Assembly: GCA_018334995.1 (NCBI GenBank)
Contig: JAGXKW010000004.1
Coordinates: 1-43,592, forward strand
Reading direction: 5' to 3'
DNA from: Wenzhouxiangellaceae bacterium
GTDB lineage: Bacteria; Pseudomonadota; Gammaproteobacteria; Xanthomonadales; Wenzhouxiangellaceae
Length of the DNA stretch: 43,592 bases
The notes below the pieces were generated by a model. The model made no database searches. It was given only the letters and a program-made list of their open reading frames with translations, and had not been told where the DNA came from. Both the position numbers and the translations under genes were made by a program. Positions 22,367 to 26,046 of this stretch are shown here, piece after piece (within the stretch, counting starts at the first letter, position 1; each line of letters begins with the position of its first letter).

Positions 22367-22915
22367 ATGAAGGGCGAGTCAGAAAATCGACCGATCAAGC
22401 AGCGCGAAGAAGCCGGCCGGACCGGGCCGCAAGGGACTCAGTTGTTCTCGCGTGACCAGATTGCCGAAATTCTGGAAAACGATTCGGAATCCGACGAAGA
22501 CCGGTCTCAGGCCAGGCTTGTGCTTTTGACCGACCATTCGGCGGGACACCGGACAGGCAAGGTTTTCGGTCTCTCCGCCGATCGGGTCACGGTCGGCCGT
22601 TCCTCGGCATGCGACGTTTGCATCGAGGAGCCCAGCATGTCGTCGGAGCACGCGCGGCTGGCTTATTCGGACGATGCCTGGCGCGTGATCAATCTCCTGT
22701 CCACCAACGGCGTGTACGTAAACGACGAAAAGGTTTTTTCTCACCGTCTCGCCGACGGCGACGAAATCCGCATGGGTCGGGTGCGCCTTCGTTTTCACCA
22801 GCCGATCAGCGGAAAACGCCGCGGCGGCCCAAGCGCCCTGTCGTGGCTGTACCGGGCGGGCTGGCTGGGACTCGCGATTGGCGCGGCCGTCGTAGCGGTC
22901 TGGCTACTGCAATGA
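22367..22915 (+). CDS. FHA-domain membrane protein
   Basis: A 182-residue protein. An FHA domain, a phosphothreonine-peptide reader, spans about 50-145. The signature residues are all in place: GRS (77-79), SSEH (92-95) and STNG (112-115), which form the phosphate-binding site. Residues 1-48 are polar and probably disordered. Residues about 164-181 form a C-terminal transmembrane helix (GWLGLAIGAAVVAVWLL), so the FHA domain is tethered to the inner membrane on the cytoplasmic side. The gene is followed 46 bases downstream by a transmembrane Ser/Thr kinase, its probable signalling partner. Target proteins are unknown. Confidence 0.88.
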   Translation: MKGESENRPIKQREEAGRTGPQGTQLFSRDQIAEILENDSESDEDRSQARLVLLTDHSAGHRTGKVFGLSADRVTVGRSSACDVCIEEPSMSSEHARLAYSDDAWRVINLLSTNGVYVNDEKVFSHRLADGDEIRMGRVRLRFHQPISGKRRGGPSALSWLYRAGWLGLAIGAAVVAVWLLQ

Positions 22916-22961
22916 GCCTGATCGGCATCGGACCGGGTCACGCGAAAGACGGCCGGGTCTG

Positions 22962-24710
22962 ATGGAACGCATTGGCCGATACGAGGTGGTGCGCGAGCTC
23001 GGTCGGGGCTCCATGGCAATTGTCTACGAGGGATTCGACGGCCGCATCGACCGTCACCTTGCGATCAAGGTTCTACGCCAGAAAAATGCGCGCGAAGTGA
23101 ACGCCCGCCAGCGCTTTCTTCGCGAGGCGCGCTCGGCCGGCGGCCTCGCACATCCCAATATCGTGACGGTCTTCGACGTCGGACAGGCCGAGGCTACCCC
23201 TTACATCGTGATGGAGTTGCTGCCCGGCGGGACCCTGGAGGACTGGCTGCGTCAGGAGCGGCTGGCCCGGCTCGATACCGACATGCTGATCGACCTGGCG
23301 ATCCAGCTCGCCAGGGGGCTGGCGCATGCCCACCAGCACGGCGTGACGCACCGCGACATCAAGCCGGCCAACATTCACTACGCTCCGAAGACCAACATCG
23401 CCAAGATCATGGATTTCGGCATTGCCGCCGCTGAAACAAGGACCGGCCCGGCCGCATCGAACGATCATGTGGCCGGCACGCTGACCCACATGGCGCCGGA
23501 ACTGCTCGCCGGCGCGCCGGCCGATTCAAGGACCGATCTGTATTCCCTGGGCGTCGTGCTGTACCAGCTCCTGTCGGGCATTCTTCCATTCGACGCCGAA
23601 AACCCGGAAGACCTGGCAAAGCAGGTCGAACGCCACGAAACACGTCCGCTGAAACCCTTTCGCGCCGATACGCCCAGGGAACTGGTCGACCTGACCTATC
23701 GCCTGATGGCGCTGGAGCCCGAATCCCGGCCCGCCAGCGCGACCCAGGTCGCCGACGAACTGGGCGAAATACAGGAGGGCATTCGCAGCGGCATCGTGCA
23801 CGCGGTACGCCGCAAATCGGCCGCCTGGCGCTGGCCGCTGGTGACAGGGCTCGGCGTGGCGCTGGTCATGGTGCTGGGCCTCAATCACGTCTACCGCATC
23901 CAGAACGAGGCGATGGCGCAGACCACCTTCGGTTTCGGCGATGCCCTGACAAGCCTCATCGCCCAGGAAACGGCCGAAGCCCTGATCCTTGAAGACACCA
24001 CGGCCCTGTCCGTGCTGGTTTCGGATTTTGCCGCCAATCCCGAAATTCGCCACCTGCACATCAGCGATGCCGACGGGATCGTCCAGGCCAGCACCAACCC
24101 ATACCTGCAGGGCGGGCAGGCGCCGCCGCCGGCGGGTGTGCCCGTAATGCGTGATTCAGGCAGCGTCCGATTGACCCGCTCGGAAGGCGATCTGCTGGAA
24201 TTCCGTGTCCCAATCCGGTTTCAGGCGCGTCAGGTCGGGCAGGTTCGGCTCGGACTCGATGGTCGCGGACTGGGCGAGACGGCCACTGCGACCATGTGGA
24301 TGCTGGTCGCGCTCTTGTGCGCTTCGCTGCTGGCCCTGGCGGCGGGACTGGCATGGATGACACGCCGACAGCAACTGGCGCTGAAGCGTCTCGGCTGGGG
24401 ACTCAAGCGCCTGCAACGCGGCCAGTTCGAATTCAGGCTGGAAACCAGCCGACGCGACGAATTCGCGACCGTATTCAGCCAGTTCAATCGCCTTGCGGTG
24501 CGCCTTGACGAACTCAGGCGCCACGCCGGACGCACTGCGCACAAGACTTCTCAGGATGCCGAAGCCGGGCTGGACTTTATACAGGACACATCGATCGACG
24601 ACACACTCGATCTCGACCGCCCCGCCGCGGCGGCCGATTCGAACGGACAGCAAGAACAAAAAACGGATTCGCAGTCGGCCGGAAAGGTCACGCCGCTACG
24701 AAGGCAGTGA
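22962..24710 (+). CDS. Transmembrane Hanks-type Ser/Thr kinase with sensor loop and HAMP-like region
   Basis: A 582-residue protein. The kinase domain (about 7-275) has all catalytic elements: Gly-rich loop LGRGSMAIVYEG, K36 in LAIKVL, HRDIKPAN (H130, D132, K134, N137) and DFG (151-153). TM helix 1 spans about 289-308. A periplasmic segment of about 130 residues (309-442) resembles the double-helix/short-sheet sensor loops of chemoreceptors. TM helix 2 spans about 445-466, then comes a HAMP-like region (467-520) and an acidic tail containing QDTSIDDTLDLD. This kinase-first, HAMP-last order is unusual. T543 (TSID) fits a TxxD pattern that FHA domains can read when phosphorylated, which is inference. 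It is 46 bases after the FHA gene and converges with the LysM lipoprotein gene. Confidence 0.9.
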   Translation: MERIGRYEVVRELGRGSMAIVYEGFDGRIDRHLAIKVLRQKNAREVNARQRFLREARSAGGLAHPNIVTVFDVGQAEATPYIVMELLPGGTLEDWLRQERLARLDTDMLIDLAIQLARGLAHAHQHGVTHRDIKPANIHYAPKTNIAKIMDFGIAAAETRTGPAASNDHVAGTLTHMAPELLAGAPADSRTDLYSLGVVLYQLLSGILPFDAENPEDLAKQVERHETRPLKPFRADTPRELVDLTYRLMALEPESRPASATQVADELGEIQEGIRSGIVHAVRRKSAAWRWPLVTGLGVALVMVLGLNHVYRIQNEAMAQTTFGFGDALTSLIAQETAEALILEDTTALSVLVSDFAANPEIRHLHISDADGIVQASTNPYLQGGQAPPPAGVPVMRDSGSVRLTRSEGDLLEFRVPIRFQARQVGQVRLGLDGRGLGETATATMWMLVALLCASLLALAAGLAWMTRRQQLALKRLGWGLKRLQRGQFEFRLETSRRDEFATVFSQFNRLAVRLDELRRHAGRTAHKTSQDAEAGLDFIQDTSIDDTLDLDRPAAAADSNGQQEQKTDSQSAGKVTPLRRQ

Positions 24711-24721
24711 GGCGCGCCGGG

Positions 24722-25906
24722 TCAGGGCTCGTCCAGGCGCAGACGCAGGCTTCTTGCCCGGTCCAGATAGACCCTTGCCGGCTCGAAGTCCGGGTCGATT
24801 TCGAGCAGCGACTCCCAGTTTCGGATCGCAAGGTCCACGTCCCGGTTGCGCCAGGCCACAAGGGCGCGGCCGTGCAGTGATTCGACCACTTCCTCCTTCA
24901 GGCTTTCGGCCAACAGCTCCGCCTCGCCGGAGGCCGGATCCAGAACCACCGCTTCAGCCGCCCGCGCATAGGCCGCCTCCAGATCGCCCCGTTCACGAAT
25001 TTCCATGGCAAGCCGGTACAACTCGCCCGACCGCAACTTCGAACGCGCCTGCACCAGCCGCGCCCGCGAGGCTGGCGTGTCGACGACCGAAAGGGCTTCG
25101 TCGACAAGCGTCACGCCACGGTCGACTTCTCCCGTAGCGCCGGCGCGGGAGATCTCTTCCAGCGTGATGTCGACCAGGCGCCGCTGGGTCGACTGCAGAG
25201 GCTGGTCGTCTCTTGCCAAATGATCGATCAACATCGTACGCGCCTGCCCGACCTGTCCGCTGCGCGCCAGATGGGCCGCGATCGATTCGATTTCCGGGGC
25301 CGAAACACCGGCCCCCGCCGACGGCGTGCTCGGTGCATCCGGGCGCCCGCTTTCGAACGCCGGAATTCGAAGCAATGTGCCGGCCGGAAGGCGCGCCGGG
25401 GTATCGATGCCGTTGAGCCGGGCGAGTGCATAGAAAAGCAGCGGATCGCCCAGCTCGCGGGAAGCGATCAACGAAAGCGAATCGCCGGGAGCGACCTGGA
25501 CTTGCTTGTAGGGCCCCGGAAGCAGCTCTTCGACGGGCGCGTCGATCTGTCGCAGCAGCCGTCTCACGACTTCGGAATCAGGCTTTCGTTCACGCAGGCG
25601 CACGAGCATGGCATGCGCGCGCTGTCCTTCACCGCGCTCGAGGCTGGCGATTGCCGCCGAGAGATCGGCGACGGCCTCCGATTCAGATTGCGGGGACGGC
25701 GTATGCGTCGAAGATCGCGGCTCCGGCGGCGAGCGCTTTTCGGACAACTGGCAGCCGCCTGCAGCCAGCGCGACCAGGGCCAGCAGAGCTGGCCGCCAGG
25801 CCTTCCACCAACCGCGGCCGACCGCGGCGATCCGCCCCGAACGCCAGAAACCGAGAACCGTCGCTGAATGCGCTCGCGTTGCGATAATCGTGAGTCTACC
25901 TTTCAA
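24722..25906 (-). CDS. LysM-domain lipoprotein with TPR-like helices
   Basis: A predicted envelope lipoprotein. A hydrophobic stretch (PALLALVALAAGG) ends in Cys within an AAGGC lipobox. A low-complexity Ser/Pro linker and a short helical repeat follow. Then comes a LysM domain (YKQVQVAPGDSLSLIASRELGD to AGTLLRIP), which binds peptidoglycan sugars. The C-terminal half is helical with TPR-like repeats, the last being WRNRDVDLAIRNWESLLEIDPDFEPA. The start is uncertain. TTG at 25906, with GAGAG upstream, gives 394 residues. An ATG at 26005 is also open. Both leave an unusually long region before the lipobox, and no standard start codon lies closer. It ends 11 bases from the kinase gene end. Function is unknown. 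Confidence 0.75.
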   Translation of the reverse strand: MKGRLTIIATRAHSATVLGFWRSGRIAAVGRGWWKAWRPALLALVALAAGGCQLSEKRSPPEPRSSTHTPSPQSESEAVADLSAAIASLERGEGQRAHAMLVRLRERKPDSEVVRRLLRQIDAPVEELLPGPYKQVQVAPGDSLSLIASRELGDPLLFYALARLNGIDTPARLPAGTLLRIPAFESGRPDAPSTPSAGAGVSAPEIESIAAHLARSGQVGQARTMLIDHLARDDQPLQSTQRRLVDITLEEISRAGATGEVDRGVTLVDEALSVVDTPASRARLVQARSKLRSGELYRLAMEIRERGDLEAAYARAAEAVVLDPASGEAELLAESLKEEVVESLHGRALVAWRNRDVDLAIRNWESLLEIDPDFEPARVYLDRARSLRLRLDEP

Positions 25907-26046
25907 TTCGTCTCTCTTTTTCCGGAGCGGAAATGGCAGCCAACCCGTCCATCGAGCGGACTGAAGGCTTTCGCCCGAACCGCCATGATAGCCAGCCTGC
26001 GCCATTCGGCGCGAATCCGGTTCTCCGGATCCAGGTCATCAGGCGC

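Follow-up and report, generated by a model that had tools for sequence, protein, structure and literature searches.

How can a membrane-bound serine/threonine kinase pass on a signal when its HAMP domain is followed by a short tail alone, and which part do the genes beside it play? The question is raised by contig JAGXKW010000004.1 of a Wenzhouxiangellaceae bacterium (GCA_018334995.1), of which positions 1 to 43,592 (the window, 43,592 nucleotides) were analysed. An FHA-domain protein gene and the kinase gene follow each other on the forward strand with a gap of 46 bp, and a LysM/TPR lipoprotein gene on the reverse strand converges on the kinase gene with an 11-bp gap (Table 1). The original prediction described these three products as a candidate envelope signalling set, and the open reading frames (ORFs), Pfam searches, and hydropathy agree with that description. 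The answer we tentatively favour, which falls just short of being probable, is a membrane-bound recruit-then-switch relay of threonine phosphorylation, resembling that of PknG and GarA, in which a conserved threonine of the kinase tail (Thr548) would dock the FHA protein and an invariant threonine of the latter (Thr24) would then act as a switch. Signal relays from membrane Ser/Thr kinases of Gram-negative bacteria are little known beyond type VI secretion, and the invariant FHA motif and the conserved tail threonine make the mechanism directly testable.

Distribution and Gene Linkage

The C-terminal half of the kinase, comprising two transmembrane (TM) segments with the loop between them, HAMP, and the tail, was used as the query in 43 genomes of the home family and in 250 genomes drawn at the order level (cut-off E 1e-10), and a profile built from 47 such C-halves was used in 369 genomes drawn at the class level. 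Full-length, single-copy matches were found in 27 of the 43 home-family genomes, and an extra weak match covering HAMP alone was found in genome G007. The order draw yielded 49 matches at the cut-off: the same 27, 21 from a second family (f12), and one HAMP-only match. At the class level, 188/369 genomes matched at E 1e-10, of which 15 (the own genome and 14 from outside the order) reached E 1e-46 or better, followed by a gap to 1e-28. The loci read comprised 27 of the home family, 20 of the 21 of the second family, and 14 distant ones, namely all the strong matches from outside the order; a catalytic domain was present in 14/14 of these strong matches vs. 0/6 of the weaker class-draw matches that were read. 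A single-protein scan of the genome contigs recovered one distant kinase only, and the plasmid records searched gave no match.

The original prediction treated the three genes as a set, and their linkage recurs at the family, order, and class levels. In the home family, the FHA gene is directly upstream of the kinase gene in 13/27 loci, the LysM gene is directly downstream and convergent in 18/27, and both are in place in five; four of the 27 loci are cut by contig ends short of where the LysM gene would lie, and one (L078) short of the FHA position. Both neighbours are present in 20/20 second-family loci. Among the distant loci, the FHA gene is upstream in 7/14, the LysM gene is immediately convergent in 9/14, and both arrangements are combined in six; L150 and L151 have their LysM gene two genes farther away. 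The expectation that both partners stay with the kinase therefore holds for many loci but not for all: unlinked kinases occur, though home-family genomes nearly always encode the absent neighbour at another site. In counts that ignore genome relatedness and assembly incompleteness, an FHA orthologue was found in 26/27 home-family genomes with the kinase vs. 3/16 others, and the LysM protein in 27/27 vs. 2/16; in the class draw, an FHA protein with the QGT motif described below was present in 8/15 kinase genomes.

Judged by gene order and co-occurrence, the three genes form a real and conserved signalling set. The displacement of one partner in many home-family genomes would suit mere neighbours, each acting alone and uncoupled from the others, but this explanation is highly improbable given that the linkage recurs at three phylogenetic levels and that the partners co-occur even when unlinked.

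Kinase Architecture

The order of catalytic domain, TM segment, periplasmic loop, TM segment, HAMP, and tail, pointed out as unusual in the original prediction, is real and conserved, since the two TM segments and the matches to HAMP, sCache_3_2, and CHASE8 recur among the relatives. Of 47 C-halves examined at E 0.01 or better, 47 matched HAMP, 41 sCache_3_2, and 35 CHASE8, and two TM segments were called by hydropathy in 47/47, with a few split calls. The region had been named HAMP-like, with a failed profile search to be counted against it; in the window, the profile matches above the Pfam cut-off. The loop (residues 331–436) gave sCache_3_2 at E 7.2e-5 and CHASE8 at E 0.0099, both below the cut-off. 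Lys36, Glu55, the catalytic Asp132, and the DFG motif are identical in 61/61 aligned orthologues, and therefore the enzyme should be active. A kinase of the PASTA type (Stk1/PknB) was rejected, as there is no PASTA match and the score is 267.7 bits vs. the NCBIfam cut-off of 450.

The loop and HAMP half is homologous to that of sCache/CHASE8-HAMP sensors such as adenylate cyclases and histidine kinases; there the output domain comes after HAMP, whereas in the window kinase it precedes the first TM segment and HAMP comes last. Two of the weaker class-draw matches, scanned with Pfam, show the homologous sensor-HAMP half fused to such outputs: an adenylate cyclase in L156 and a histidine kinase in L158. 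A terminal HAMP may work alone because pairing of the TM2 helices could determine how the kinase dimer and the tail are arranged, so that no following domain would be needed. Three distant kinases without a real tail (L150, L151, and L155) still retain HAMP, and that of L155 terminates with it. If the proposed relay is right, a HAMP domain needs no domain behind it to function.

FHA Protein and Its N-Terminal Motif

The FHA set comprised 57 proteins: 34 encoded beside kinases (including the tandem pair of one locus), 16 from further FHA searches, and 7 from distant loci. The phosphothreonine-binding residues Arg78, Ser92, His95, and Asn114 (GR, SxxH, N) are invariant in 41/41 FHA proteins, and one C-terminal TM segment per protein was called by hydropathy in 34/34 orthologues. 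Outside the FHA fold, the sole invariant stretch is the N-terminal GPQGT[QRHMV]hF. Its threonine, Thr24 in the window, is kept in 56/56 orthologues that reach the motif, the 57th being cut by a contig edge just before it; the +2 and +3 positions are hydrophobic in all 56, and +3 is Phe in 50. Twenty-seven of the proteins (20 from the second family and 7 from other families) were chosen by kinase adjacency only, which means that their choice did not depend on the motif. On this conservation, Thr24 of the FHA protein, rather than the kinase tail, is the better-conserved candidate phosphosite.

A profile of 41 FHA proteins retrieved the GarA structures 6i2p, 8p5r, 7rj3, and 2kfu as its top PDB matches. 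The alignments span the N-terminus and place Thr24, without a gap, on the second Thr of ETTSVF, which is Thr22 of GarA; the title of 2kfu reads 'Rv1827 pThr 22'.

Eight genomes of the class draw had a full-length FHA match with the QGT motif, and the kinase gene adjoins it in 8/8. Among the 354 genomes without the kinase, none of the FHA proteins read carries QGT and one has a GPMGT variant; 30 FHA loci of the draw were read, and the weaker matches mostly begin past the motif. Two weaker matches (L186 and L197) show QGT by chance at a position unrelated to the motif, and the small FHA-TM proteins of L124 to L126 lack the motif.

The GPMGT variant occurs in L176 (G452:C45) as GPMGTRF between the two domains of a double-FHA membrane protein; a PP2C gene adjoins it, as does an ORF that resembles glutamate dehydrogenase by eye, and a C-HAMP kinase of this type is missing from the genome. 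Tandem FHA genes, both with GPQGT, lie ahead of the kinase gene in L068:1094-2207. An additional FHA-like protein of about 255 aa is encoded just upstream of the FHA gene in L089:4922-5689, L091:4934-5737, and L093:8532-9299 (Pfam for L089).

Threonine in the Kinase Tail

The kinase tail is variable apart from one threonine. The original prediction proposed the tail, with TxxD-like sites (Thr543), as an autophosphorylated dock; Thr543 does lie in a TxxD sequence, but it is not conserved and was rejected as the dock, and the conserved threonine is Thr548, five residues further on. In the home family, this threonine is aligned in 27/27 tails in one of three alignments and in 26/27 in the other two, the next column reaching 0.70. 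In the second family, it is present in 20/20 tails within the motif QPTxhh, followed by the adjacent Pro (0.95) and then 0.70. Strict motifs were matched by 26/27 and 18/20 tails, respectively, vs. shuffle means of 1.4 and 0.015, counts that overstate the case since the patterns were written after the tails had been seen. A fairer control is given by the other columns, which are at most 0.70 in the home family and in f12 are higher only for the adjacent proline (0.95). In per-family shuffles, Thr columns reached maxima of 0.44 and 0.50; a shuffle of the pooled tails is uninformative for 'any residue', as alignment of the shuffled proline-rich tails produces proline columns that reach 1.0. A comparable threonine is found in 8/14 distant tails (L142, L143, L144, L146, L148, L149, L152, and L154). 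By these alignments, the tail site is a strong, though not universal, feature, and because the threonine is missing or unclear in 6/14 distant loci, the tail is not the whole story.

The two threonines can be accommodated in other ways than a relay. The model of the original prediction would have the autophosphorylated tail stably keep the FHA protein, as the output effector, at the kinase. The conserved Thr548, with its hydrophobic +3 residue, and the adjacency of the FHA and kinase genes would suit such a dock, but it leaves the invariant GPQGT of the FHA protein unexplained, and the lack of conservation of Thr543 and the existence of tail-less kinases (L150, L151, and L155) also speak against it, so we consider it improbable. 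Alternatively, Thr24 may be the sole regulatory site, in the manner of GarA or DgcB, with the kinase recognising the FHA protein otherwise and the tail threonine being a by-product of autophosphorylation or serving another partner. GPQGT is present in 7/7 adjacent FHA proteins of the distant loci while the tail threonine is not present in all of the paired kinases, and a GPQGT FHA gene persists beside a PP2C gene in two genomes without the kinase (L122 and L123). A by-product is hard to square with Thr548 ranking first in conservation among the tail residues of the two families, and the FHA gene occurs in just 3/16 kinase-less genomes; we hold this explanation to be somewhat doubtful.

Comparison with Known Systems

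GarA and OdhI are soluble proteins without a TM segment. The FHA protein resembles them in the N-terminal Thr with hydrophobic +2 and +3 residues, in the profile match over both the N-terminus and the FHA domain, and in the intact phosphothreonine-binding residues. It differs in having GPQGT in place of ETTS, with a counterpart only to the second Thr of ETT, and in scoring 55.9 bits vs. the NCBIfam OdhI cut-off of 200. Furthermore, it is membrane-anchored and gammaproteobacterial, it has no known metabolic target, and its kinase is a transmembrane sensor with HAMP. It is not a GarA/OdhI member because it lacks ETTS, carries a membrane anchor, and falls far below the OdhI cut-off. An intramolecular switch is named in the reference list of a study of PknG.

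According to that study, autophosphorylated threonines in a disordered extension of PknG recruit the FHA domain of GarA/OdhI, which leads to more phosphorylation of the N-terminal Thr in the ETTS region (PMC8546545). The likeness lies in a kinase with an autophosphorylatable disordered region, as reported there for PknG. By this analogy, the kinase-FHA pair of the window has the parts for PknG-like logic, both partners being membrane proteins. A second parallel is DgcB of Bdellovibrio, whose FHA domain binds its own N-terminal pThr14, the authors remarking on hydrophobic +2 and +3 residues (PMC6733907). The FHA protein shares with DgcB the N-terminal self-peptide ahead of the FHA domain and both hydrophobic positions; the output of DgcB is a fused GGDEF domain, whereas the FHA protein has just a TM anchor.

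In the type VI secretion system (T6SS), an FHA protein reads phosphothreonine, as stated in PMC3953482. The PpkA-PppA-Fha pathway (TagQRST) likewise combines a membrane kinase, a PP2C phosphatase, an FHA reader, and envelope proteins. The differences are that neither VipB nor PP2C_2 gave a match in the own genome, that the FHA protein lacks T6SS_FHA_C, and that the kinase ends in HAMP; against the TagH model, the FHA protein scored 43.3 bits (cut-off 120). The original prediction had noticed no T6SS genes nearby, and VipB/TssC (PF05943) had no match across the entire own genome (94% complete). Membership of the T6SS pathway was rejected, since VipB and the T6SS FHA domain are absent. A stranded branch of this pathway, with its periplasmic lipoprotein kept and the secretion system gone, would account for the shared components (kinase, PP2C, FHA, and envelope lipoprotein), and the distant L150 kinase does adjoin a T6SS FHA gene and a PP2C gene; the presence of VipB in only 2/25 relatives and in none of the own contigs, together with the missing T6SS_FHA_C domain, renders it very unlikely. 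In L150:2931-11111, the tail-less kinase of the same type stands beside the T6SS FHA gene (PF20232), PP2C, a polysaccharide deacetylase, a TPR protein, and a LysM/TPR protein.

Gene clusters of FHA, kinase, and phosphatase are already known, e.g., in M. tuberculosis, according to PMC1262709. Searches of open-licence papers found no described HAMP-FHA-kinase or FHA-LysM system.

Proposed Relay

In the relay that we favour, the sCache-like loop of the kinase would sense a periplasmic cue, and the TM2-HAMP unit would govern how the kinase dimer is arranged and how far the tail is exposed. Autophosphorylated Thr548 would dock the neighbouring FHA protein. Once docked, the latter would be phosphorylated on Thr24 (GPQGTQLF), and pThr24 may then fill the groove of the FHA domain, either in cis or, within a membrane oligomer, in trans. 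With its groove filled, the FHA protein would leave the tail, and the reader would be closed or re-aimed. A PP2C phosphatase may reset the switch in relatives. The LysM/TPR lipoprotein, on account of its linkage, may be a further envelope component of the system, perhaps an upstream sensor.

Several points weigh against this relay. Its phosphorylation and binding steps are predictions from sequence, and the residues before the threonine are GPQG in the FHA protein vs. the acidic ETT in GarA. The FHA gene is located elsewhere in 12 to 13 of the 27 home-family kinase genomes, and QGT-FHA is lacking in 7/15 class-draw kinase genomes. Among the distant tails, the threonine is unclear in two (L145 and L153) and missing in four (L147, L150, L151, and L155), and the FHA proteins neighbouring the L147 and L145 kinases nevertheless retain GPQGT. 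PP2C_2 had no match in the own genome or in G002. Single-sequence structure predictions from the window gave poor models, with predicted local distance difference test (pLDDT) values of 44 and 47.

The fullest form of the proposal is a new, T6SS-independent system of envelope sensing in Gammaproteobacteria, in which the LysM/TPR lipoprotein and the Cache loop would feed the kinase, the terminal HAMP would gate a phospho-dock tail, and a GarA-like tail-anchored FHA protein would be caught, phosphorylated on the Thr of GPQGT, and released self-closed; as a whole, we regard it as unlikely. If the relay itself is true, the recruit-then-switch logic of PknG and GarA exists far beyond Actinobacteria and in a membrane-bound form.

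LysM Lipoprotein, PP2C, and Other Genes

Table 1. Positions of the features of the FHA-kinase-LysM locus in the window.
Feature	Position	Strand	Basis
FHA protein gene, 182 aa, tail-anchored via one C-terminal TM segment	22367..22915	+	ORF, Pfam, hydropathy
N-terminal motif GPQGTQLFS, residues 20-28	22424..22450	+	Conservation, GarA alignment
Thr24 codon, proposed switch phosphosite	22436-22438	+	Conservation, GarA alignment
FHA domain, residues 74-137	22586..22777	+	Pfam FHA, E 6.6e-19
FHA protein TM segment, residues 163-182	22853..22912	+	Hydropathy
Sensor Ser/Thr kinase gene, 582 aa	22962..24710	+	ORF, Pfam
Hanks-type catalytic domain, residues 7-263	22980..23750	+	Pfam Pkinase, E 2e-51
Kinase TM1, residues 292-311	23835..23894	+	Hydropathy
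Kinase periplasmic loop, sCache_3/CHASE8-like	23895..24278	+	Weak Pfam in window, below cut-off
Kinase TM2, residues 440-468	24279..24365	+	Hydropathy
Kinase HAMP, residues 465-516	24354..24509	+	Pfam, 27.7 bits vs. cut-off 25
Kinase C-terminal tail, residues 517-582	24510..24707	+	Conservation
Thr543 codon, TxxD, not conserved	24588-24590	+	Tail alignments
Thr548 codon, conserved, in DDTLDL, proposed FHA dock	24603-24605	+	Tail alignments
TPR-LysM-TPR lipoprotein gene, 427 aa as called	24722..26005	-	ORF, Pfam, hydropathy
Lipoprotein LysM, residues 170-215	25361-25498	-	Pfam, 23.7 bits vs. cut-off 20.9
Lipoprotein lipobox Cys85	25751-25753	-	Lipobox-like AGGC

The lipoprotein combines a LysM match above the cut-off with a lipobox, and its TPR_2 match is below the Pfam cut-off. 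The lipobox-like AGGC is preceded by an unusually long stretch, and the true start codon is uncertain. What is observed of its role is genetic linkage alone; the suggestion in the original prediction that it reports on peptidoglycan is a guess.

Many relatives also have a PP2C phosphatase gene in the set, and PP2C_2 was found in 4/5 other genomes of the same genus. A separate stretch carries the FHA gene in 13 home-family genomes, with a PP2C gene directly ahead of it (Pfam for L112, L113, and L117; blastp for 13/13); one of these stretches, L119, stops at a contig edge and may truly adjoin the kinase gene. PP2C is also found ahead of the FHA gene in six kinase loci (partial in L068) and after the LysM gene in 9/20 second-family and 4/14 distant loci. 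Several home-family genomes have a CRP-family regulator gene that converges on the kinase gene or on the detached PP2C-FHA pair (L071:8055-8726, L113:3314-4246, and L117:3205-3981). The own genome contains eight more Hanks-type kinase domains in ORFs of 332 to 1097 aa, located on contigs C38, C124, C28, C47, C96, C21, C105, and C24.

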